From the NCBI GenBank assembly GCA_027019175.1, contig JALUXB010000087.1, positions 1-62,477 on the forward strand: DNA of 62,477 nt, written 5' to 3'. The position numbers were made by a program, and so were the translations under genes. This DNA comes from Sulfurovum sp. (lineage in GTDB: Bacteria; Campylobacterota; Campylobacteria; Campylobacterales; Sulfurovaceae). This document shows, piece after piece, positions 22,053 to 34,941 of this stretch. The notes under the pieces are model-generated. The model had not been told where the DNA came from. It was given only the letters and a program-made list of their open reading frames with translations, and searched no databases. Within the stretch, counting starts at the first letter, position 1; each line of letters opens with the position of its first letter.

Positions 22053-22090
22053 TTAAATCATACAAACCAATCGTGCTTCAAGGATGGCAA

Positions 22091-23356
22091 ATGACAAAAC
22101 TATTAAAAAAAGTCTTTCTTGCCGTTTTTACAGGTGTTTTCATTATCGGGGGCGGATATCTCTATTTACAAACAGATCCAACGCTAAGCAACTACCAACT
22201 ATGTGAACTTTTGCACGGTTATTTAAAACTGGCATGGCAACTGGGATTGGTCATTGTGGGAATGTTTAGTATTTATGCGAAAGTACGACCTTTTGCACTG
22301 ACCGTAGCACTGCTTTACGGTGCTTATGTGTGGTGTGACCGTCCTCTTGACAAAACGGTCTGGATCAAAAACTTCTCTGATCAAAACCGCGGTATCACAA
22401 TTAACGATAAAAATTACACTTTTTCACCCGGTATGGAAAAACCGTTTAGGTTTTTGACCGGTACAGTATCAATCGACAAAAAAGAGATCAAAGAACGAGG
22501 CACCTATGTTGTCAACCTTGCTTATCCCGAGAAATACCTCCAATACGGACCGATTCACAATATTGCACGACAAGGTACACTCTATGAAGCATCGCCACTC
22601 AAGCTTTCAAAACAAAAAGTAACAAAAATCGATCCCGAACCCGATGCTACGATTAGCAATATCGCATCTGTACCTGTCAGTCCACGGTGCTATTATATTG
22701 AAGCGGTAGATGCATTTAATGCAAAGTATAGTGAAGTAGCACAAATTTATAAAAAAGGATGCGACCAAAACGATAGTGCCTTCTGTTTCAGCCTTGCTCT
22801 TAGCTATGAAACGGGAAAGGGTGTACCGCAAAGCTACACCAAAGCCAATGCCCTTTACAAAACCGCATGCGAAAGAGGGTATGCCGAGGCGTGCCACAAC
22901 TTGGCTGTCAATTATGACCATGGCACAGGGGTATCACAAGATCGCAGACGAGCCATTGCACTTTATAAACAGGCTTGCCAAAACGGTATTGCCGTTGCCT
23001 GTTTCAACATAGGCAACGCCTATGGCTACGGTTTGGGAATGGATGTAAACATGACGGCGGCGGCAGTCTATTATCAGCAAGCCTGTGAACTCGGTGATGG
23101 AGACGGATGTTACAAAGCCGGCAATTTCTATACATACGGTAACGGTGTCGATGAGAATTCAACTTTGGCAAAACGCTACTTTAAAAAAGCGTGTATCTCA
23201 GGAAATCTCAAAGCATGTTCACTCGAGAAAAATCTTGCAAAGAGCGATGCTCCTGTAACGGAAGAGCTTAAAGATGAGATATTGAAACAGATCCGTCATA
23301 GCAAAGACCCGGGTACTTCATTTTGGCAGCGGGCGCATTACTATATGGACGAGTAG
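22091..23356 (+). CDS. Membrane-anchored Hcp-type Sel1-repeat protein
   Basis: About 421 residues. Two to three hydrophobic segments lie in the first 90 residues (VFLAVFTGVFIIGGGYLYL; QLGLVIVGMFSIY; LTVALLYGAYVW), then a domain of about 100 residues of unknown fold, then four to five Sel1 repeats. Each repeat carries a pair of cysteines a fixed distance apart (GCDQNDSAFCFSL, ACERGYAEACHNL, ACQNGIAVACFNI, ACELGDGDGCYKA, ACISGNLKACS), the disulfide pattern of Helicobacter cysteine-rich proteins (Hcp). Only plus-strand gene of the island. GTG 22073 is possible but AAGGA favours ATG 22091. Confidence 0.85.
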   Translation: MTKLLKKVFLAVFTGVFIIGGGYLYLQTDPTLSNYQLCELLHGYLKLAWQLGLVIVGMFSIYAKVRPFALTVALLYGAYVWCDRPLDKTVWIKNFSDQNRGITINDKNYTFSPGMEKPFRFLTGTVSIDKKEIKERGTYVVNLAYPEKYLQYGPIHNIARQGTLYEASPLKLSKQKVTKIDPEPDATISNIASVPVSPRCYYIEAVDAFNAKYSEVAQIYKKGCDQNDSAFCFSLALSYETGKGVPQSYTKANALYKTACERGYAEACHNLAVNYDHGTGVSQDRRRAIALYKQACQNGIAVACFNIGNAYGYGLGMDVNMTAAAVYYQQACELGDGDGCYKAGNFYTYGNGVDENSTLAKRYFKKACISGNLKACSLEKNLAKSDAPVTEELKDEILKQIRHSKDPGTSFWQRAHYYMDE

Positions 23357-23408
23357 AAAACGACCGCAGGCAGGGGTCAGATTAAGTGCCGGTTAATACA
23401 GATAAAAA

Positions 23409-24197
23409 TTACGACGTTTCGCACCCTCGTTGCGCTATCGACTCTGTCAACAATCGATAAGTCTCGTTGAACCGGACATCACATTTATCATGATCAATCT
23501 CCAGTTTCTCTACACTACTTTGAATGTAAAGCAGTTTTGCCGCTCGCTTCATATTGCGATCCAGAATGAAACGTTTTTTAACCGTTTTACCCTCTACGGT
23601 TTGAAATGTTACATCCGCAACACTGCTTCTGACATAACCCGAATATCGTGTTTTTGTTTCGAAAGATGCGATCTCCTCATACAAAAACTCTTCCCCCTCT
23701 ATGGCAAAGCCCTCTTCGCACACATATAAATCGAAAAGATTCGTTTTGTGCGGAATGAGACGTCTGAGTTTCTTGTAAGGCAGAACGACAGATATGAACG
23801 CTTTATATTCCGCATCGTCGAATATCACGTTTTCAAAAATATTTCGAATATTTTTGTTGTCACTTAGATACAAGGAAACTCTTTTAAGATCTCCACACAC
23901 AAACAGTTTGAAAAAGAGTGTATTGTTTTTCAGAGGAAGTCTTTTTGTATCGAAAAGCAGCGTATCCGCTTCGATAGTAAATTCATAAACACGGGATTGT
24001 CGGCATAAATAAGCTCTGTGAGCGTAGAAAACCGCTGCAGCAAATAAAAAAAACGACGCAAAAAGAGTGATATAAGCTACAAAAAATCCAAAGTCATTGC
24101 TAAATCTGTATGCAACATATCCGGTGGTGATAGAACCGATGGCAAATACTACACTCTTTGCAACGTTTCGTCCGTTTGACTTTTGTGTGATTTTCAT
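23409..24197 (-). CDS. Two-helix membrane protein, paralog A of an island family
   Basis: 262 residues, family not recognised. Two N-terminal helices (VVFAIGSITTGYVAYRF and FFVAYITLFASFFLFAAAVFY), then a soluble domain of about 190 residues with VYEFTIEADTLLFDTKRLPLK, SLYLSDNKNIRNIFENVIFDDAEYKAFISVVLPY and LYVCEEGFAIEGEEFLYEEI. The same ordered blocks occur in the proteins at 26335-27111 and 27108-28022, so these are paralogs. The beta-rich blocks with 'EGFAIEG..LYEEI' suggest a PH-like or YcxB-like fold (inference). It starts by ATGA overlap with the preceding 714-residue gene and is last in the run. Confidence 0.75.
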   Translation of the reverse strand: MKITQKSNGRNVAKSVVFAIGSITTGYVAYRFSNDFGFFVAYITLFASFFLFAAAVFYAHRAYLCRQSRVYEFTIEADTLLFDTKRLPLKNNTLFFKLFVCGDLKRVSLYLSDNKNIRNIFENVIFDDAEYKAFISVVLPYKKLRRLIPHKTNLFDLYVCEEGFAIEGEEFLYEEIASFETKTRYSGYVRSSVADVTFQTVEGKTVKKRFILDRNMKRAAKLLYIQSSVEKLEIDHDKCDVRFNETYRLLTESIAQRGCETS

Positions 24198-26338
24198 TGC
24201 AAAATATCCATTTGGATTTTTTTAGTGTTCAAATCGATCACAATACGATACATATCGCTCATGACAAAGACCAAGCTATCCTTGTCAACATAGGTTTGTG
24301 TCATTTTCCCCTGCCACTTTCTCGGATCGAAATCCAAAAGCTTGTTATGCTTTTTGGTAGCAGTATCGTAAAGATAAATAGCGTCTTTGTTAAGGTAGAC
24401 AATCCCGTCTTTCCACCATCCAACAAGTGCTCCTTTCCATCGTGACACAATTTTGGGTTCGGATGCATATGCAACAAGGGCAATGTCTTTACCGTCTCCC
24501 AAAGCAATAGCACTTCCCTTAGTCTCGGCACGTGTGGCAAAAAAATCAAGCGTAAGCTCTTTTCTGGATTTGTCGAGAATCACAAGCAGGTTTTGTCTCT
24601 TTCTGGATACAACATAAAAGGGACTCTTTTTTACAAAACCTACCGCCATACAATCGTCTGGAAACCGCGACAAATCTTCGACTACCTTGGTTTTCTTTTT
24701 GAGGTCAGATGTTATCTCGACGGCGCTGTCGGTAGCGATGATGACAGCTTGATTGGAGCATGCGATATCTTTGACGGAGTTTTCGGGATATTTGACAAGA
24801 ATGCGGTGAAGATTGTTATCTAACAACTCCAGACCGTACCCCTTCCCCGTTCCGTATATTGCCGTCATATTTTGGCATTTTTTCAGACCCCACGGATGCG
24901 TCATGCCGATAGAGGCTTTTTTGACAATTTTATGATTTTGAAGTTTGGCAATGTAGCGTTTTGTAAGAAGATAGGCGTCGGTATCGACTCGGACATAACC
25001 TATCGCCTTATCACGGGGCGCAATAAGAGAGGCTTCGTATTGTACCGAAAGATGTCCGTTTCGAAGCGAGAAGTCGATCAGTCCTAAATCCGGGTTATCT
25101 TCATCACCTTTTTGCACATAGACGGCAAGATGTCGGTCGTTTTGTTCGTAAAACCCCAGTGGTGTAATGTCTTTGTATGCGATATAGCCTTTAGGTGTGC
25201 TAAAGATCAGGCGAGGGTCGTAAACAACTGGCCAAAACCCTTTGGAAGTATAAAAGAGTGCGATCGGTGTCCCCTTGTTATTTTGTAGCGTTCCGACAAA
25301 TTTCGGGGAGGTTTTCTTGACGAAATCTTGTTCGATCTTCTCTTTTTGGGGATCATAGGTATAAATGACGATATTGGATTCGAACGACTCTTTTTCTTGC
25401 GGCCATTGCCACATAATCAGGCGGTTGCCTTGCAAAATGTTCGCATAATATTTCGAACCCACGCTCACTAGCCAGAAATCGTCAGTCGATGTAAAAAATC
25501 CGTATCGGCGGTTGTTTCGGAAATAATCGTTCCAGGAGTGATAGGTGTGCCATGTTCGGTTTTCATCTAACCCCAACGGCAAAAAATTAACAGCGGTGTG
25601 CAGTACCTCTTTGGTATCGACATGAAGCAGCAAAGAGAAATATCGCGAGACAGCCAGTATGGCATTGTCGCTTTTTCGCATACGGACACCGGCATTTTCG
25701 CACATTTTTTTTGAACTATTCATTCTAACCTGCAAAGGAAAGCGTGCATAGGGATAGCGTAAGGTATCGATAATTGTCAAATTGCTATCAAACCACGTAA
25801 AGCGCGGACCCGGTTGGGCGGTGATCAATTGATCGCCGTGCCAGAGCAGATCGCTCACATCGTTTGCAAGATGGATACTTCGGCTGTGATAGGTCTTGAG
25901 ATCTAAGAGATACAAATTTTGCTTGTGGTGGCAATAAAGAGCAAGATGCCGGCCGTTGAGAGCAGGTTTTGTACAGGTGCTGTCTTCGATAAAAAAACTT
26001 TTTTCAAGCCTCAAACCTTTGGATGTTTGCAAATATTCGTAGATGCGGTGTTGTCCGTAATCGTCGAAAGAGAGAAAAAGTCGGTTGCCTTCACGTACGA
26101 TGTTTTCAATTTTTTCATCGGGCAGAAGGGAGCGTACCTTTTTTTGAACGAAAACGGGATTGACGGTAATTTTGGGCTGAACGATTTTTTTCTTTTGTGC
26201 CGATTCGGGATGAAAATAGCGATACGCCGTCTCTTGGGCGATTTGTTCCATCTCTTCTTGGCTAAGCGGCATAAAATCATCGAAAGAAGAACATAAAAGT
26301 TTTCCGACTATGAGAAGAAAAAGCGGCAATATATTCAT
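24194..26338 (-). CDS. Large exported protein, possibly beta-propeller, unknown
   Basis: 714 residues from the ATG that overlaps the upstream stop (ATGA). A signal sequence or anchor (MNILPLFLLIVGKLLCSS) leads to a 690-residue body made of many short beta-strand segments with recurring 'LYLLDLKT', 'WFDSNLTIIDTL', 'VIYDPR', 'IVIDLNTKK' phrases, as in propeller-like proteins. There is no enzyme motif I recognise. It sits between paralogs A and B in an overlapping operon, so it probably works with them in the envelope. Confidence 0.7.
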   Translation of the reverse strand: MNILPLFLLIVGKLLCSSFDDFMPLSQEEMEQIAQETAYRYFHPESAQKKKIVQPKITVNPVFVQKKVRSLLPDEKIENIVREGNRLFLSFDDYGQHRIYEYLQTSKGLRLEKSFFIEDSTCTKPALNGRHLALYCHHKQNLYLLDLKTYHSRSIHLANDVSDLLWHGDQLITAQPGPRFTWFDSNLTIIDTLRYPYARFPLQVRMNSSKKMCENAGVRMRKSDNAILAVSRYFSLLLHVDTKEVLHTAVNFLPLGLDENRTWHTYHSWNDYFRNNRRYGFFTSTDDFWLVSVGSKYYANILQGNRLIMWQWPQEKESFESNIVIYTYDPQKEKIEQDFVKKTSPKFVGTLQNNKGTPIALFYTSKGFWPVVYDPRLIFSTPKGYIAYKDITPLGFYEQNDRHLAVYVQKGDEDNPDLGLIDFSLRNGHLSVQYEASLIAPRDKAIGYVRVDTDAYLLTKRYIAKLQNHKIVKKASIGMTHPWGLKKCQNMTAIYGTGKGYGLELLDNNLHRILVKYPENSVKDIACSNQAVIIATDSAVEITSDLKKKTKVVEDLSRFPDDCMAVGFVKKSPFYVVSRKRQNLLVILDKSRKELTLDFFATRAETKGSAIALGDGKDIALVAYASEPKIVSRWKGALVGWWKDGIVYLNKDAIYLYDTATKKHNKLLDFDPRKWQGKMTQTYVDKDSLVFVMSDMYRIVIDLNTKKIQMDILQ

Positions 26339-27111
26339 ATCGATGCACACTCCTTGGTTTGTATCTCTTTTAAAATCGTATCGAAGGCTTTGGCAAATTT
26401 TTTATTGCCCGTTACCTTCTCTATCTTTTCGCTGTTTACTCTCATGGAAACATAGATGAGTTTGGCATATAACGCTTCATTTGTATGTATAATATATGCT
26501 TTAACAACTGTACCGTTTTTTAAACCGACATAAAGGCGAACAATTTCCGTTTTTGCCGTCATATGGTGAAATACTTCTGTTTTCCAGTTTATACGTTTTA
26601 CTTCATTGTAAAAAAGCGATCTTCCTTCAACCATAAACCCTCTTTTACATACAAAAAGCGTACCGCTTGTATCGGTTTCCCATAAAAATGTGTTAAATTT
26701 ACTGTAAGGGACGATAAGACTCAAAAATGTTTTAAACTCCGAAGGATTGAAAATCATATCTTGAAATATCGTCTCTACGTCTTGGCTCTTTTCCATAAAG
26801 AGCGAAACGGCGCTATTTTCACCACAATCTTTCAATCTGAAAAAAAAATAAGCGTCTTGCAGAGGAAAGGTTTTGTCGTCGATACGGAAGTTGTCGTCGA
26901 CGACGCTTATTTTATGGGTTGTTGCTTGTTTGCAGCTTTTTAGATCCAAAGCCAAAAACAAAATACGAACCGTCAAAAATCCGATAACTGCAATGGTAAT
27001 CAGATTGAGACCGTATAGTGCATAAACCGTTACAATGACGGCAATATAAAGAGTGATTTTATAAAAAATCTTTTTCGTATCTTTTTTATCGATTGTGATA
27101 GAACGACTCAT
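26335..27111 (-). CDS. Two-helix membrane protein, paralog B of an island family
   Basis: 258 residues. Two helices (YKITLYIAVIVTVYALYGL; ITIAVIGFLTVRILFLAL), then FRIDDKTFPLQDAYFFFRL, SLFMEKSQDVETIFQDMIFNPSEFKTFLSLIVPYSKF and LFVCKRGFMVEGRSLFYNEVKRI, matching paralogs A and C block by block though clearly diverged. It overlaps its neighbours by four bases on both sides. No known family assigned. Confidence 0.75.
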   Translation of the reverse strand: MSRSITIDKKDTKKIFYKITLYIAVIVTVYALYGLNLITIAVIGFLTVRILFLALDLKSCKQATTHKISVVDDNFRIDDKTFPLQDAYFFFRLKDCGENSAVSLFMEKSQDVETIFQDMIFNPSEFKTFLSLIVPYSKFNTFLWETDTSGTLFVCKRGFMVEGRSLFYNEVKRINWKTEVFHHMTAKTEIVRLYVGLKNGTVVKAYIIHTNEALYAKLIYVSMRVNSEKIEKVTGNKKFAKAFDTILKEIQTKECASI

Positions 27112-28022
27112 GCGCTTTTGCCCGTTTGTTCATTATGGATTTTTTCAATCTCTTTGCACAACATCCGTTCGTCGTTGGCATTGAAAGAGACGTAAAGGGT
27201 GGTGACAAACAACATCACGGCACCAAGCGGAAGAAACTTTTCATTGTATACGATCAGTCCTACCGTAATAAGATCCGATATCAATACGATATATCCTAAG
27301 TAGCTCTTTGGAGGACAAAGCAAACTAAAGTTTAAAGGTTCATCGCGATTAAAAAGCATTGAGGCGTAAAGGGCTTTGGCGTACTCCTGTGTACCGTCGA
27401 CAAGCCTTTTGTCAATTTGCTCACTGTTTTTTAAAACAATATGTATATCCAAAAAATTTTGTCCGCTCATTTTGACCCATTGGGTATCGAACTTCTCGAC
27501 CTCGTTATAGAAAATTTCTCGATTTTCAAAAGCGAAACCGCCTTCAAACAGTCTGATTTTGCCTACCTCCTCTTTTGACAAACACAGATCGCTTTTTCGG
27601 TAAGGCTTAATGAGTGTCAAAAAATTTGCCATCTCTTCAAGGTTCAATACTGCATGTTTGAAAATCTCTACAGTTGTACCATCTTTTTCCAACCATAAAG
27701 AGGTGCGAAACAGCTCATCGCTTTTTGTGTAGCTGACAGTAAGGTAGGCATTCTCAAGTGCATATGTCATATCATTTAAAAAGAGTTTCCCCTCTCTGAT
27801 ATCAAACAATAGATCTACAGCCTGTTTGTAGCGGTCATATTTGACAAGATATACGACCCCGAAAACAACAAGCACAATGGAAAGAATCTTGCCAAAGACC
27901 GTTAGGAAGTCTCCTGCTGCACCGTGGTATGTCATAAGATAGTAAAGTAAAAATACCCCGCTTACAACAGCGGCTATGCCACCGTAAAAATAGAGAGGTT
28001 TTTCTTTCGCTTCTATAAGCAT
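27108..28022 (-). CDS. Membrane protein, paralog C of an island family, with extra C-terminal helices
   Basis: 304 residues. Two N-terminal helices (IAAVVSGVFLLYYLMTYH; ILSIVLVVFGVVYLV), then LFDIREGKLFLNDMTYALENAYLTV, SLWLEKDGTTVEIFKHAVLNLEEMANFLTLIKPYRK and LFEGGFAFENREIFYNEVEKF, which align with paralogs A and B. Unlike them it has a second helix pair near residues 245-285 (YIVLISDLITVGLIVY; LPLGAVMLFVTTLYVSF). AGAGGA lies six bases before the ATG. Confidence 0.75.
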   Translation of the reverse strand: MLIEAKEKPLYFYGGIAAVVSGVFLLYYLMTYHGAAGDFLTVFGKILSIVLVVFGVVYLVKYDRYKQAVDLLFDIREGKLFLNDMTYALENAYLTVSYTKSDELFRTSLWLEKDGTTVEIFKHAVLNLEEMANFLTLIKPYRKSDLCLSKEEVGKIRLFEGGFAFENREIFYNEVEKFDTQWVKMSGQNFLDIHIVLKNSEQIDKRLVDGTQEYAKALYASMLFNRDEPLNFSLLCPPKSYLGYIVLISDLITVGLIVYNEKFLPLGAVMLFVTTLYVSFNANDERMLCKEIEKIHNEQTGKSA

Positions 28023-28059
28023 TTTGCATCCTCTCTATATAAAACAACGCAATACATCA

Positions 28060-29190
28060 TTACAACACTTTGTATCTGCTTTTATAGCTACAATTGACCG
28101 CTTTTTTGATAGCATTGTCTATATTGTCGGCATGTGTATGTCCGCATTGCGGCGTATAGAGTCTGCCGTCGGCAAAGTTGCCGTTAACCGATTGCCCATG
28201 TTTTACCCCGACTGTCATTATCGTATATCCGCCATTGTTCGGATAATAGAATATCTGACCGTCATAACTGCCGTTGTATTTTAGATTGTAAACATAGTTT
28301 CCGTTGCTTTTGTTATAGCCTTGATATTTGATTTGGATGCCTCCGGTATCATTACCGTTTGATTTAAATGCACCCGCAATCATCTTACGAAATTTTTGTG
28401 ATGCTTTTGCCATATCGGTATTATATCTCTCTTGTAACTCTAATGCTTTTTTGTATTTACTGGCAGAAACATATGGTTTATAATATTTCAGTGCACCAAT
28501 ATGTTTTGCAACATCATTAGATAGACTCCAATTATGTTCAATATCTTCAATTTCGACATCGAATGCTTCACGGATACAGGATGGGCAAACTTTATAATAG
28601 GCTTTCATAGCATTTTTGTATCCACGAAGAGCAAGAGATCTTGAGAGATTTATCCTTCCATTCTTACCTTGATATTTCCGGGTGTTTAAGAGCTTTTTCA
28701 TAATATGATTCGCCCAATGGATATAGCCGTATTTTTCCGTGAGTTCTAATGATTCCAACGGCGCAGGCCCCCACAAAGAAGCAAGCGTATTAATCAATTC
28801 TTTTCGATGGGATAGCAGATAGCTTTTATAATGTTTTAGTGTATAATCCGCCAGGACATAGGCACATTCTTTGTCTTTTGAAAAATAGGCAAATTCTATC
28901 GGCTCAAATTTTGTGCCTTTGGTTGGGGAGACGGTTTTGGCAAAAGGATTCGCTCCCTTACTCAATAGTTTTTTAACCTGGCTACATTCATGCTTTACCA
29001 CAGCAAGATGTAAAGGGGTGATTCCATCCCATCTTCTAAAATCTTTCTCGTTACTTACGGGGTAATAATTCATATCGCTTGTAACATGTCCTCGCTCATT
29101 TACCTGTTTAACATTCACCCTAATACAGCCGGAAAATATAAATACAAACAGTATTAAAACCGGTAAAATTTTAGTATGTATTAAAATCAT
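28060..29190 (-). CDS. Lipoprotein with ankyrin repeat, unknown
   Basis: About 376 residues from the ATG preceded by AAGGAGAAGAGG. The signal peptide ends in lipobox IFSGC. A partial ankyrin region follows at about residues 50-110 (WDGITPLHLAVVKHECSQVKKLLSKGANPFAK). The middle is helical and the last 100 residues are glycine, tyrosine and asparagine rich (YQGYNKSNGNYVYNLKYNGS) and end with two cysteines in TPQCGHTHAD and VNCSYKS. An upstream in-frame start would overlap the neighbour and hide the signal peptide. Probably a surface or periplasmic partner of the island proteins. Confidence 0.75.
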   Translation of the reverse strand: MILIHTKILPVLILFVFIFSGCIRVNVKQVNERGHVTSDMNYYPVSNEKDFRRWDGITPLHLAVVKHECSQVKKLLSKGANPFAKTVSPTKGTKFEPIEFAYFSKDKECAYVLADYTLKHYKSYLLSHRKELINTLASLWGPAPLESLELTEKYGYIHWANHIMKKLLNTRKYQGKNGRINLSRSLALRGYKNAMKAYYKVCPSCIREAFDVEIEDIEHNWSLSNDVAKHIGALKYYKPYVSASKYKKALELQERYNTDMAKASQKFRKMIAGAFKSNGNDTGGIQIKYQGYNKSNGNYVYNLKYNGSYDGQIFYYPNNGGYTIMTVGVKHGQSVNGNFADGRLYTPQCGHTHADNIDNAIKKAVNCSYKSRYKVL

Positions 29191-29206
29191 CCTCTTCTCC
29201 TTTGCA

Positions 29207-30481
29207 TTAATCGCGATATTTGAAATAACAATTGTTCGTACAAGTATCAAAATCACTCGTACCGAATATCACGGCACCGTTTGTCTTTTTCAATCCTTCG
29301 CACATCGCACTGCAAAATCTTGACAATGCCGTCGATTTTTCAACCCGACTACAACTGCTGTATGCATATTGGCATCCCATGCGGCAGCTTTGTTTTGCCG
29401 AATTGCTAAAGAAACCGCTTGCATCGCTTTTGCCTTCGCAATGTTCCAGACAGATACGATTCATCTTGCTGCAATCGAGTGTAGTTCCCTGTGAACGTGT
29501 TCGATTTTTCTTTGCATAATATGTATTTTCCGCTGAACTAATAAGATTTTTCAACTGAGATATACTATTGAACTGTGTATTTGAAAAATAGTGTGACAGA
29601 CCTTCGGAAATAGTTGCAGTACCCCTGTTAAAGTTACCGTGATGCATTGTTGTCTTTATCTTAACATACAATTTATCTGCCATTAAAAAAGTACTTCCTA
29701 CCGTTTCGGAACAAGACAATGTACCATCTCCGTCGGGATATCCGTTTTCATCAATATTACCGTCCCAGCTGTTACATGGCATTCCTATAAGCGTGTTATA
29801 TTTTCCCATTCGTTTTTGTAGTTTTTTCTTCAGCTTTTCTTGTTTTAATTGTTGTTTTTCGTTAAGAGTCAAATAGTCGTTTAAATTAAAATGCATGCCG
29901 TATCTTCCGTTGATTTCACGAATCAAAATTTTCATATTATGCAAATGGAAATGTTGTCGTGCCAATTGCAAAAAACGATCCACTTTCTGTTTGTCGTTAA
30001 CGGTTTTTAGTATGGCAAATTCTACTTCTCCTTTTTCTATTTCATGTCCTGATATCACAGTAGGTTTCCATACAAAAAAGAATAACGGCAGTCGGTCTAC
30101 CGAAGCCATAATGACATTATTTTGGCTTTTCATACCAAAATACCCACGCTTTAGAATAGCATGTTCTCCTACATCGATAGCAACTGGTTGTATACCAAAA
30201 ATTAAATGATATTTTCCAGACTCTTCATATAAGGTAAACCCCATGTTGTTTCCTATTGTGTCTTTGTATAAAGAGACGAACAATGTACCAGGATTTTCTC
30301 TTGAATACATCAATTCCAATTCTTTGTAAGAAAGGTTTCCTGAATTGATCGTGACCTCTTGATGAAATATTACAAAGTCTGATTGAACAGATATATTGGC
30401 CACTTCATCATATTTAATACTACATCCAGGTAGATATAGTAAACCCATCATCAAAAAAATATAAATCTTGAATTTTTTCAT
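29207..30481 (-). CDS. Cysteine-rich lipoprotein with MORN-like motif
   Basis: 424 residues. The signal peptide has lipobox LYLPGC (residues 16-21). Residues about 245-295 include GNIDENGYPDGDGTLSC and HHGNFNRGTATI, which look like MORN-type strands. The last 95 residues hold at least ten cysteines in CxxxC-like pairs (CSKMNRICLEHCEG, CRMGCQYAYSSC, CSAMCEGL, CTNNC), suggesting a disulfide-knotted C-terminal domain outside the cytoplasm. ATG 30481 is chosen because AAAGGA is seven bases away. Not recognised as a named family. Confidence 0.75.
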   Translation of the reverse strand: MKKFKIYIFLMMGLLYLPGCSIKYDEVANISVQSDFVIFHQEVTINSGNLSYKELELMYSRENPGTLFVSLYKDTIGNNMGFTLYEESGKYHLIFGIQPVAIDVGEHAILKRGYFGMKSQNNVIMASVDRLPLFFFVWKPTVISGHEIEKGEVEFAILKTVNDKQKVDRFLQLARQHFHLHNMKILIREINGRYGMHFNLNDYLTLNEKQQLKQEKLKKKLQKRMGKYNTLIGMPCNSWDGNIDENGYPDGDGTLSCSETVGSTFLMADKLYVKIKTTMHHGNFNRGTATISEGLSHYFSNTQFNSISQLKNLISSAENTYYAKKNRTRSQGTTLDCSKMNRICLEHCEGKSDASGFFSNSAKQSCRMGCQYAYSSCSRVEKSTALSRFCSAMCEGLKKTNGAVIFGTSDFDTCTNNCYFKYRD

Positions 30482-30514
30482 CGACACATCCTTTCGCGTG
30501 TAATTAAACTCACT

Positions 30515-33500
30515 CTAATATAGCTTTGCACCTATATGCAAATCTTTTTTTCTTGCGAATATACTTTGCTCCGACCCTATGCTGATTTGACAAAACAGTG
30601 TGCCACCAGCAGTAAAACATTTTTTAATTACCCCAATATAATCTTGATTAAGTTTAAGCCCATCTATGAGATTAACTCCTTTCCAGGTTTTTTCGTTACC
30701 ACCATTCATCTGTGTTGCCATGAGAGCCACCTCCATTTCATCTTTCTTTTTTCTAATGTAGGTTCCTCGTGGGATTATACATTTTCTATCAATTAGGTCT
30801 TTTTTATCTTGTGATACATCTATTTTATGTAGAACGTGAATCTGATCATTTTCATTAGGATTTTTAATAGATAAATACGCACTAAATGACCATCCACTTA
30901 ATTCGCCATCCACTCTTTTTATTTTATACCATTTCCCTCTTTTTTCTAAAATCTCAACTTTTTCATGGCTATATAGTTTGCCGATTTGTTTACCGCGAGG
31001 CTTATTGCGCACCGCTAAAAAATTATCCCCCTTCGGATCCAACCCTACCACTGTAGCAATTTCCTTATTTTGGAACAGTGCCGGGTTTAAATGTTTATCT
31101 ATATCCTTCTCTATATGTTTTAAATCGGAAATAACTTCGCTTACAGCTACCAGCTTTATAGAATCACATGCTTTTTTATTACCAAGAGAACATCCCTTCT
31201 TAAATAATTTTCGTGCTTCAATATCATTAGCATTTCGAATAAGCTTTTTAAGATGCAACCCTCCAAGATTTGCACATCCCATTGCATTTTTCAAATCGCA
31301 TGCTTTCGTGTAATACTTTGCAGCATTCTCATATTCTTTTCTTTTTTCCAATATAAAACCTATACTGTTGCAAGCGGGGGCAATACCTCCATCACATGCT
31401 GTTGTGAAATACGTCAATGTTTTTTCAATATCTTTTGGCACGCCATCACCATGACGATAGTTAATACCTATACTATAGCACCCTAATACATATCCTGATT
31501 CACATGATTTTTTAAAGTATGTATTGGCTTTTTCATATTCACCTGCACGGTCATAAATTCTACCCAGCTCAAATAGTGTTCGGGCATTCTTCGGATTTTT
31601 GACAAGTTCCTTTTTGCAGACATCAAGAGCTTTGAATACTTTGATTTTATCGTATTCAATGCCTTTGAAATGTGGATCCATCGGTGAACCAGCTAATAGG
31701 TCGCATTGAGTTGTTTTTGTTTTGGAGGAAGGGCTTGTTTTTTGTTTTTTTACGTTATTGTCAGTATGTATATTTTTCTTTTCTTCTTTCAAGGTTTTCC
31801 ATATCTCTTTTCCTTTAGAAATCAAATCTTTTTTACTATGATATATTTTATTTAATATTTCGAAATCTTCATCTAAATCATAATCTCTTTCAAGATAGAA
31901 TTTATAATATTTTTTTGCATTTTTCAAATCTCCAAGAAGCATATAACTGTGTGCTATGTTACTGACATTTTCACTTATCGGTATATGATTTTTAATATCT
32001 GAAATGTTATAACGATAATTCCCACCAAGCAAATAGAACCAAGAAGCATAATCATATTTTTCTTTATTTTCATAGTATTTACCAGCTTCTGTACATACCT
32101 TTTTGAGGTTTTCAATATTAATATTATCTTTTTGTATCTCTTTTTGACATTTGTCAGCACTCTTTTTTGAAGGTGTTTTGTTTTTATTATCCATCATCCC
32201 TTCAATCATTTTAACAATAAGTACTGGCTTCTTTGTCATAAGAAGTTTTATTTTTTTTTCTGCTTTTTCTTTTCCATATTTTTCTATGAGCTTTTCTGCA
32301 AGCTTTTTGCTTGCTTCTCTGTATTTTTCCGTATCGAGATCATTTAATTTAAGAAAGGAGAGAATAAGTTCAAAAAGTTTTTGTTCATTACCATAAGTAC
32401 CGTCTATAAGCTTTTGAACAATATTCTTAAGTTTTTTTGGTATATCCATTGCTAAAAATGAACCTATATAAGTTCCGTTTTGATCAAATAACATCTCATA
32501 TGGTGTACTACCGGTCCATCTTGATCTTATTAGCATACTATATATGAATGCAAGTGCATCCTCGTAAGCAACTACAGGATACGAAACTTTATTTTTTGAA
32601 ACCCATTTCGATACATCTTGTACTTTATTACTATTCCAGCTATTAATACCAATTATCTGCACATTTCCTTTAAACTTTTTTTCAATCTGTTTAAGATTAT
32701 CTATTGCGAATTTAAACAAAGGGGAGTCATCGGAATAAACATTAAAGTCTATTATTATGATTTTTTTGGGATATTGTTTTACATATAATCCTTTTTGAGT
32801 ATTTACAATCGTTATCTCTTTCCCATAAACATTTTTCATTTTATAAGATTTTTTAGCTATAAGAGGTATCGCTTTTCTTACAAAGTCGTTATCTTCCATT
32901 AGTGATTCATCCATATATTTAAAAGCGATATTATTATTTTGAATAGCAGCAAGAACGACATCTATGTCTTTTTTTAAAGAAGCATCAGCATATTCTAATA
33001 CGTGACTATTTTCTTTAACAGCTGCCAGTACAAATTTTTTATCTTTTTTTAAAGAAGCATCAGCATATTCTAATGCAAAAGGATTACTTTTAATAGCCGT
33101 GAGAACAACATCTTTGTCTTTTTTTAAAGAAGCATCAGCATATTGTAACATATTACCTTTTTCTTTAACAGCAGTAAGAACAACATCTTTGTCTTTTTTT
33201 AAAGAAGCATCAGCATATTCTAATACGTGACTATTTTCTTTAACAGCTGCCAGTACAAATTTTTTATCTTTTTTTAAAGAAGCATTGGCATATTCTAGAT
33301 TATGGCCACTTATAGACACGGCTGCTAATACAAAATTTTTATTTTTTTTATGTGCATCATCTATAATAGATAATAGAGGATGATGACCACTAGCAATCAT
33401 TAGAACATCTTTGTCTTGTTTTAAAGTATCGTCAACATATTTAATAGCATGGTTATCTTTCTCTACAGCTAACATTACAATATTTTTATTTTTTTTAAGA

Positions 33501-34378
33501 GTATCATCAGCATACTGCAATGCATAAGGATTATGTTTAATAGCCGTGAGAACAACATCTTTGTCTTTTTTGAGGGTATCATCGGCATACTGTAATGCAA
33601 ATCCATCTTGCCTAACAGCAGCAAGAACAACATCTTTGTCTTTTTTTAAAGAAGCATCAGCATATTCTAATGCAAAAGGATTACTTTTAACAGCAGCAAG
33701 AACAACATCTTTATCTTTTTTTAAAATTGCATCAACATATTCCAAATCTTCACCACATCTTTTTACTATTTCTTGTACAAAAAATTTCTTTTTTGTTAGA
33801 AAATCATCAAACTGTAACCATTTCAGTCCACATCCATTTATCTGATTGGCCGCAGCGAGGAGAACATCTTTGTCTTTTTTGAGGGTATCATCGGCATACT
33901 GTAATGCGAATCCATCTTGCTTAACAGCAACAAGAACAACATCTTTGTCTTTTTTGAGAGTATCATCCGCTCCCTCTAAGGCTCGACCATTATTTTTCAC
34001 AATATCAAGGATGATTTTTTTATCTTTCCTGAGTGAATCATCAGCAAAATATAGTGCTTTATAATTTTCTTCAATAATAGATAAAACAAATTTTTTATCC
34101 TTTTTAAGTGAATCGTCAGCAGATTCAAAAGCATAAGTATCTTTTTTAACCATATCTAAAAAAAACTTTTTATCTTTTTTTAGTTTATCGCACACTTGAA
34201 TTCCACTAGTATTCATCATATAATTTAAAAATCCCATATCATCTAATGCTTTTTTAAATTCTTGTTTGTTACATACTACTTTTTTATGTAATACTCCACC
34301 TTCATATAACACATAAACAGATATCGCAGTAATGGCCAAAATCACAACATAAAAAATATATTTAAGTAATTTTTTCAC
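30515..34378 (-). CDS. 1287-residue mosaic envelope protein: DUF4116 repeats, thioredoxin-like, Sel1/Hcp repeats, SH3
   Basis: GTG start after GGAGGAG. Domains in order: membrane anchor (residues 8-26); 17 full repeats of about 25 residues (87-513) with a partial first one at 63-86, of the type ADASLKKDKDVVLAAVKSNP, matching DUF4116; a thioredoxin/TlpA-like domain (about 537-660: KIIIIDF, GNVQIIGINSW, GSTPYEMLFDQNGTYIG) lacking the CxxC pair; helical TPR-like stretch; Hcp-type Sel1 repeats with paired cysteines (about 930-1080); a bacterial SH3 domain (about 1110-1170: FLAVRNKPRGKQIGKLYSHEKV); and a short C-terminus. The gene is much richer in A+T than its neighbours. Function unknown; the parts suggest a scaffold on the periplasmic face. 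Confidence 0.88.
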   Translation of the reverse strand: MKKLLKYIFYVVILAITAISVYVLYEGGVLHKKVVCNKQEFKKALDDMGFLNYMMNTSGIQVCDKLKKDKKFFLDMVKKDTYAFESADDSLKKDKKFVLSIIEENYKALYFADDSLRKDKKIILDIVKNNGRALEGADDTLKKDKDVVLVAVKQDGFALQYADDTLKKDKDVLLAAANQINGCGLKWLQFDDFLTKKKFFVQEIVKRCGEDLEYVDAILKKDKDVVLAAVKSNPFALEYADASLKKDKDVVLAAVRQDGFALQYADDTLKKDKDVVLTAIKHNPYALQYADDTLKKNKNIVMLAVEKDNHAIKYVDDTLKQDKDVLMIASGHHPLLSIIDDAHKKNKNFVLAAVSISGHNLEYANASLKKDKKFVLAAVKENSHVLEYADASLKKDKDVVLTAVKEKGNMLQYADASLKKDKDVVLTAIKSNPFALEYADASLKKDKKFVLAAVKENSHVLEYADASLKKDIDVVLAAIQNNNIAFKYMDESLMEDNDFVRKAIPLIAKKSYKMKNVYGKEITIVNTQKGLYVKQYPKKIIIIDFNVYSDDSPLFKFAIDNLKQIEKKFKGNVQIIGINSWNSNKVQDVSKWVSKNKVSYPVVAYEDALAFIYSMLIRSRWTGSTPYEMLFDQNGTYIGSFLAMDIPKKLKNIVQKLIDGTYGNEQKLFELILSFLKLNDLDTEKYREASKKLAEKLIEKYGKEKAEKKIKLLMTKKPVLIVKMIEGMMDNKNKTPSKKSADKCQKEIQKDNINIENLKKVCTEAGKYYENKEKYDYASWFYLLGGNYRYNISDIKNHIPISENVSNIAHSYMLLGDLKNAKKYYKFYLERDYDLDEDFEILNKIYHSKKDLISKGKEIWKTLKEEKKNIHTDNNVKKQKTSPSSKTKTTQCDLLAGSPMDPHFKGIEYDKIKVFKALDVCKKELVKNPKNARTLFELGRIYDRAGEYEKANTYFKKSCESGYVLGCYSIGINYRHGDGVPKDIEKTLTYFTTACDGGIAPACNSIGFILEKRKEYENAAKYYTKACDLKNAMGCANLGGLHLKKLIRNANDIEARKLFKKGCSLGNKKACDSIKLVAVSEVISDLKHIEKDIDKHLNPALFQNKEIATVVGLDPKGDNFLAVRNKPRGKQIGKLYSHEKVEILEKRGKWYKIKRVDGELSGWSFSAYLSIKNPNENDQIHVLHKIDVSQDKKDLIDRKCIIPRGTYIRKKKDEMEVALMATQMNGGNEKTWKGVNLIDGLKLNQDYIGVIKKCFTAGGTLFCQISIGSEQSIFARKKDLHIGAKLY
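32990..33289 (-). repeat. Near-identical 75-bp coding repeats in the mosaic gene
   Basis: Repeat units at 32990-33064 and 33215-33289 encode the same 25 residues, and their DNA is identical apart from about one base. Adjacent units also share long exact runs. The DNA repeats form part of a 75-bp periodic array across about 32.8-34.1 kb. Confidence 0.85.
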
Positions 34379-34434
34379 AACTTCTCCTCCTCTAATTATT
34401 ATTAATCTATTCCACTAAAGATAAAAGTTATACA

Positions 34435-34941
34435 TTACACTACATCTTTCATATACACAAGCCTATACCGCCCGTCTTTCTCATTGAAAACAAACAATGC
34501 AACCAATGTTGTTCTTTTGCCTTTTTTGGTCACAATATCTGCTGTTACAAAGCATCCGACACTCTTCTCATTTATAAATGGGCGTATATATAGCGGAGTA
34601 TATTCACTATCTTGCTTTTTAGTTACCGGATAACGTTTGCCTAGTTGCGTAAATTGCTCCGTAAAGGTATTTCGATCAAAAAAGATGATTTCATGCAAGG
34701 TAATATGCCCCATACCTTCTGCCTGCCTGATCTGCTTTATCGCAGACCCTTTTTTCTGTTTACGAAATACTGCATCTTTTGATACATAGGCAAGCGATTT
34801 CTTCACATCTTTTTGCACCAAAAATGCATTAACAAAATTTAGAGCTACACGATACCCCTCTGTTTTGTCCATATCTGATGCATACAGCATCCCCTGCATT
34901 AGAAATAAGATTGAAACAAATAATTTAATGTTTATCTTCAT
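34435..34941 (-). CDS. Small exported protein, NTF2-like in appearance
   Basis: 168 residues with a signal peptide (INIKLFVSILFLMQGMLYA). The mature part begins GYRVALNFVNAFLVQKDVKKSLAYVSKDAVF and ends in VALFVFNEKDGRYRLVYMKDVV, a helix-then-curved-sheet pattern that recalls NTF2-like/lumazine-binding domains (inference). AAAAGGAGA before the ATG. First gene of the minus-strand island run, 56 bases upstream of the mosaic gene. Not recognised as a named protein. Confidence 0.7.
   Translation of the reverse strand: MKINIKLFVSILFLMQGMLYASDMDKTEGYRVALNFVNAFLVQKDVKKSLAYVSKDAVFRKQKKGSAIKQIRQAEGMGHITLHEIIFFDRNTFTEQFTQLGKRYPVTKKQDSEYTPLYIRPFINEKSVGCFVTADIVTKKGKRTTLVALFVFNEKDGRYRLVYMKDVV

Follow-up and report, generated by a model that had tools for sequence, protein, structure and literature searches.

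A low-GC island of Sulfurovum carrying three diverged membrane proteins with predicted tandem PH-like domains

Three paralogous genes in one operon raise the question of whether their products form a single complex or act separately. Such a triplet occurs in the window analysed here, a stretch of 62,477 nucleotides from Sulfurovum sp. (contig JALUXB010000087.1), in which an earlier note had described three diverged paralogs interleaved with a propeller-like protein. The open reading frames of the three, hereafter named P1, P2 and P3, were found at exactly the coordinates it gave, on the minus strand. The genes of the island are as follows (TM, transmembrane).

22073 to 23356, plus strand: convergent gene; membrane N-terminal domain followed by Sel1 repeats.
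23409 to 24197, minus strand: P1, 262 aa; the most diverged copy, laid out as P2; ATGA overlap with PROP.
24194 to 26338, minus strand: PROP, about 714 aa from its ATG; hydrophobic N-terminus; ATGA overlap with P2.
26335 to 27111, minus strand: P2, 258 aa; TM hairpin (residues 13-33 and 37-58) and two predicted PH-like domains (about 66-136 and 152-226); ATGA overlap with P3.
27108 to 28022, minus strand: P3, 304 aa; a TM hairpin at each end, the soluble region between them being homologous to the tandem PH-like part of P2.
28060 to 29190, minus strand: ANKL, ankyrin lipoprotein with its start at an internal ATG; ankyrin segment at about aa 55-205.
29207 to 30487, minus strand: LIPO, lipoprotein matching no family; 87% identical in a Sulfurimonas MAG contig.
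30515 to 34378, minus strand: 1287-aa protein with 12 DUF4116 repeats, TPR/Sel1 and a bacterial SH3 domain; N-terminal signal or anchor.
34435 to 34941, minus strand: 168-aa protein opening the minus-strand run, its N-terminus signal-like; no family model reached its cut-off.

The paralogy of the triplet was borne out by sequence comparison. A pair without a significant score was looked for and not found, as BLASTP connected P1 with P2 (E 5e-31, 257 aa), P2 with P3 (1e-16, 217 aa) and P1 with P3 (8e-10, 213 aa). With the TM helices removed, Smith-Waterman alignment of the soluble parts gave z values of 38.6 (P1-P2), 23.8 (P2-P3) and 15.6 (P1-P3) against 500 shuffles, ruling out hydrophobic-helix similarity as the source of the match. 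The shared sequence blocks quoted in the note are likewise real, with L104, E125, P135, Y136, G158 and Y168 (P2 numbering) invariant in 11 family members. The C-terminal TM hairpin is confined to P3 and is missing from P1 and P2. No Pfam, NCBIfam, PADLOC, PHROG or PDB sequence family was matched by the P family. The three are best explained as a new inner-membrane family, in which a TM hairpin is predicted to precede two tandem PH-like domains; P3 adds a second hairpin.

The fold was approached through an AF2 model of P2, built on an alignment of four rows only and of moderate confidence (mean pLDDT 68.6, pTM 0.46). In this model, a short strand (residues 3-7) and the two helices of the TM hairpin (13-33 and 37-58) are followed by two domains of six strands and a helix (beta6-alpha). 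The structural matches returned by VIA-align were almost all PH folds, led by the Sin1 PH domain (Z 8.2) and Rtt106 (Z 8.0), and the tandem-PH proteins Spt16 and SSRP1 aligned with Z of 5-6 across 154-165 residues. The tool itself rates these values as middling, and the informative part is the uniformity of the list. Foldseek returned no match to the model at E<0.001, the bPH family models found no sequence match among the P proteins, and no convincing profile alignment between the first and second PH-like domains pointed to an internal duplication. Each P protein is predicted to carry two PH-like folds in tandem, a kind of fold that binds lipids or proteins. In most members the loop is poorer in lysine and arginine than the N-terminus ahead of TM1 and the stretch behind TM2, a bias that points to PH domains on the cytoplasmic side of the inner membrane.

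The guess of a PH-like or YcxB-like fold therefore looks largely right at the level of the fold, has weak profile backing for YcxB, and failed against the curated YcxB model. Alignment of the P family with 18 Campylobacterales YcxB proteins by hhalign was marginal (E 3e-4, probability 40%), with the first domain in register through its closing helix, and the two families appear to share an N-terminal segment, a TM hairpin and a PH-like domain closed by a helix. PF14317 (cut-off 23.3 bits), however, matched neither the window proteins (E up to 1) nor the 11 members (E up to 0.1), and the P proteins differ from YcxB in having two PH-like domains and conserved PY and GF...Y.E motifs. YdbS and YdbT (PHb; bPH) also combine TM hairpins with bacterial PH domains, and membrane proteins of this type come in pairs within one locus (PMC8657885); unlike them, the P proteins show no sequence match, place two tandem PH domains after one hairpin and travel with a large partner gene. 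Bacterial PHb domains of PF08000 form rings, and one PF08000 form adds a C-terminal helical hairpin; these have the bacterial PH fold that is predicted for the P proteins, but are described as single-PH proteins and show no sequence match to P (PMC2817789). The STM3941 family (NF041635), short membrane proteins with a TM hairpin, gave one weak HMM match (E 0.038), yet no profile-profile match, and membership of P in it was rejected.

The genes are transcribed in the order P3, P2, PROP and P1, and all three junctions are ATGA stop/start overlaps. That between P2 and PROP depends on choosing the ATG at 26338 as the start of PROP; this codon has AAGGAG upstream and is more likely the start than the listed GTG at 26350. 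The description of PROP as propeller-like gained no support from the window's own protein, which matched no family, showed no significant internal periodicity and gave an uninformative single-sequence AF2 model (pLDDT 37), and for which no relatives were detectable in 399 genomes of the order. It fits the neighbour of the P genes in genome G077, a 991-aa protein (L032, 1683-4655) that reaches the WD40 propeller model PF00400 at 29.8 bits against a cut-off of 27; other propeller models gave values down to 1e-14 but stayed under their respective cut-offs. PROP would be located in the periplasm; its N-terminus lacks a basic n-region, which makes its export uncertain.

Differing large proteins adjoin P-family genes in four other genomes (G094, G077, G244 and G145). 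G094 repeats the layout of the window, with a 525-aa protein between a P3-type gene and a P gene and overlaps of 8 and 4 bases. In G077 the WD40 protein is followed by P3-type and P2-type genes, and G145 has, 3' of a P3-type gene, one for a 540-aa protein whose N-terminus is signal-like. On contig C75 of G244 the P gene overlaps an upstream propeller-type reading frame by ATGA, bringing the start/stop overlaps at P/neighbour junctions across G094 and G244 to three. This propeller-type gene (L031, 1806-3797) is interrupted by stops and is possibly a decaying copy or an assembly error. Except for G077 and G244, the large neighbours have no detectable relation to one another or to PROP, indicating that the position is conserved while its occupant changes; it is this position that suggests an interchangeable partner. 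The P-family members of G289 and G141 and the P2-type members of G194 and G244:C114 stand without a large neighbour, so that PROP may be dispensable.

Three P-family loci have MoxR, DUF58 or vWA (Bat-type) genes no more than about 5 kb away (L029, 1172-6882; L030, 2-3001; L037, 6708-7406), with MoxR/DUF58/vWA genes near the locus in G194, MoxR in G279 and vWA/DUF58 in G244. Proximity within a few kilobases recalls the MoxR-vWA beta-propeller ternary systems (PMC7159879), but no fusion of a propeller to a vWA protein was noticed and the window island has neither MoxR nor vWA. A functional link to Bat/MoxR was not upheld, the two Bat-type clusters of the host being on other contigs.

A profile built from P1, P2 and P3 was scanned against 399 genomes of the order, rows at E 0.002-0.01 not being counted. 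Clear matches were obtained in eight genomes besides the window's own (G077, G094, G141, G145, G194, G244, G279 and G289), that of G279 being a fragment with an internal stop, and the window's genome is the sole carrier among 78 of its genus. A named relative is the Sulfurimonas MAG contig WFQD01000090. The queries tried against viral contigs, phages and plasmids found no relatives, and the PADLOC models of known defence systems gave nothing notable. The distribution is very sporadic, with fast turnover.

In a tree of 14 rows, the P2-type members (P1, P2, G194, G244_b, G077_k5 and S012_93) were split from all others at 96/91 support; P1 forms a long branch, and its placement is less sure. P3 shares 42% identity over 304 aa with G094_d, which comes from a different family of the order; for P2, identity is 71% to the S012_93 fragment and 32-33% to the proteins of G194 and G244. 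Because other genomes hold closer relatives of P3 and of P2, a recent triplication in situ was rejected and the triplet gathers old lineages. A second genome with both types is G077, where the P3-type and P2-type genes adjoin each other.

The surrounding genes are probably part of the same module as the P operon. In G194, each of four consecutive genes (L029, 9492-12468) has a segment in common with one of the island's genes in the window, and this resemblance is the basis for the grouping: one protein shares a 64-aa segment with the DUF4116 protein (2e-10), another shares the C-terminus of the ankyrin lipoprotein (a weak match, 4e-6 as a single comparison) and a third matches the convergent Sel1 protein in its N-terminal domain (3e-17), with a P2-type gene in the same row. 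The membrane N-terminal domain of that convergent protein also adjoins P2-type genes in both G194 and G244, and it recurs at L030, 7373-8554.

The genes from 22073 to 34941 have a GC content of 31-43% and GC3 of 21-47, against GC3 of about 49-56 in most flanking genes; GC3 is only 21% in the DUF4116-repeat gene (30515-34378). The island sits at a variable site between tonB and ykuD. Between the tonB-like and ykuD genes of G036 and G014 there is just a single short gene, of about 145 aa and by eye hemerythrin-like. The corresponding gap of the closest relative, G009 (HemL 95% identical; L095, 7394-12146), holds an unrelated low-GC cargo of three genes and a gene resembling an IS200-type transposase. 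In the Sulfurimonas MAG, ANKL and P2 have no P3 between them, and a segment of roughly 100 aa distinguishes its DUF4116 protein from that of the window. Most of the flanks of ANKL are about 75-95% identical to the MAG protein (L005, 2737-3864), with the ankyrin segment mostly at 30-60%, as if swapped or hyperdiverged; blastn found no match across about 440 bp of this segment. Such turnover resembles what is seen at loci of recognition or conflict. Together with its lipoproteins and repeat proteins, the operon is best explained as an accessory envelope module gained by horizontal transfer.

These results lead to a reading that is given an even chance of being correct, namely a horizontally moved, hetero-oligomeric inner-membrane assembly whose cytoplasmic tandem PH domains are coupled to an interchangeable partner. 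P1, P2, P3 and PROP would be made in coupled translation and join one membrane complex, in which P3-type and P2-type proteins would be non-equivalent subunits, the PH domains would offer an oligomerising or ligand surface and PROP would serve as the recognition part. A hetero-oligomer of P1, P2 and P3 is plausible in view of the ATGA coupling, the coexisting subfamilies and the tendency of bacterial PH domains to form rings. From the mobility and turnover of the locus, competition or immunity appears the likeliest role, the assembly recognising or resisting competitors, or sensing at the cell envelope.

The main rival, which is possible though on the unlikely side, is a polyimmunity locus, where P1-P3, the lipoprotein and the ankyrin and Sel1 proteins would be separate antitoxins against different effectors injected by rivals and the paralogs would not form one complex. 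Polyimmunity loci likewise hold distant tandem paralogs without recognised toxin genes and vary between close relatives, and some of their immunity proteins consist of two TM helices (PMC3482391). The low-GC variable island, the presence or absence of P3 and the divergence of the ankyrin segment suit this explanation, which needs no complex and accounts for the turnover equally well. However, none of the island proteins tested matched an Imm family model, the recognised domains being Ank, Sel1, DUF4116, TPR and SH3, and two island proteins, at about 714 and 1287 aa, are large for an immunity role. It also leaves the coupling unexplained, as the recurrent pairing of P genes with a neighbour through start/stop overlaps suggests a functional unit.

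An envelope maintenance or export device like YdbS-YdbT or DdE-DdF, in which the PH membrane proteins would transport a membrane-active peptide or lipid, or give tolerance to it, with the large partner as adaptor, is improbable. The kind of layout shared with YdbS/YdbT (TM hairpin plus PHb domain, paired genes), the predicted PH folds and the MoxR/DUF58/vWA genes near the P loci of G194, G279 and G244 are in its favour, but no bacteriocin-like gene was noticed, no bPH family HMM matched, and so sporadic and quickly changing a distribution is ill-suited to housekeeping. Least probable is a contact or adhesion module, with PROP, the DUF4116, ankyrin and Sel1 proteins and the lipoproteins as an array that P1-P3 would anchor for binding at the surface or in the periplasm, for although one run of large repeat proteins bears signal-like N-termini or lipoboxes and the ankyrin segment is diversified, no known adhesin domain or outer-membrane anchor was found and PROP has no assigned fold.

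The hetero-oligomeric assembly can be extended to a bolder proposal, regarded as rather unlikely, of a new, horizontally moving and modular envelope system in Campylobacterales, in which P2-type and P3-type proteins, as non-equivalent membrane subunits, would supply a conserved base. To this base each genome would add its own unrelated, propeller-like recognition protein and exchangeable ankyrin segments, and the whole would serve to recognise other cells or their toxins or to defend against them. The P family adds TM-anchored tandem PH-like proteins in a Gram-negative setting to a poorly explained group that includes YcxB and YdbS/YdbT, and brings a recurrent genetic partner to bacterial PH membrane proteins. 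It thereby makes testable the question of whether bacterial PH membrane proteins may act as assembly bases for envelope recognition complexes.
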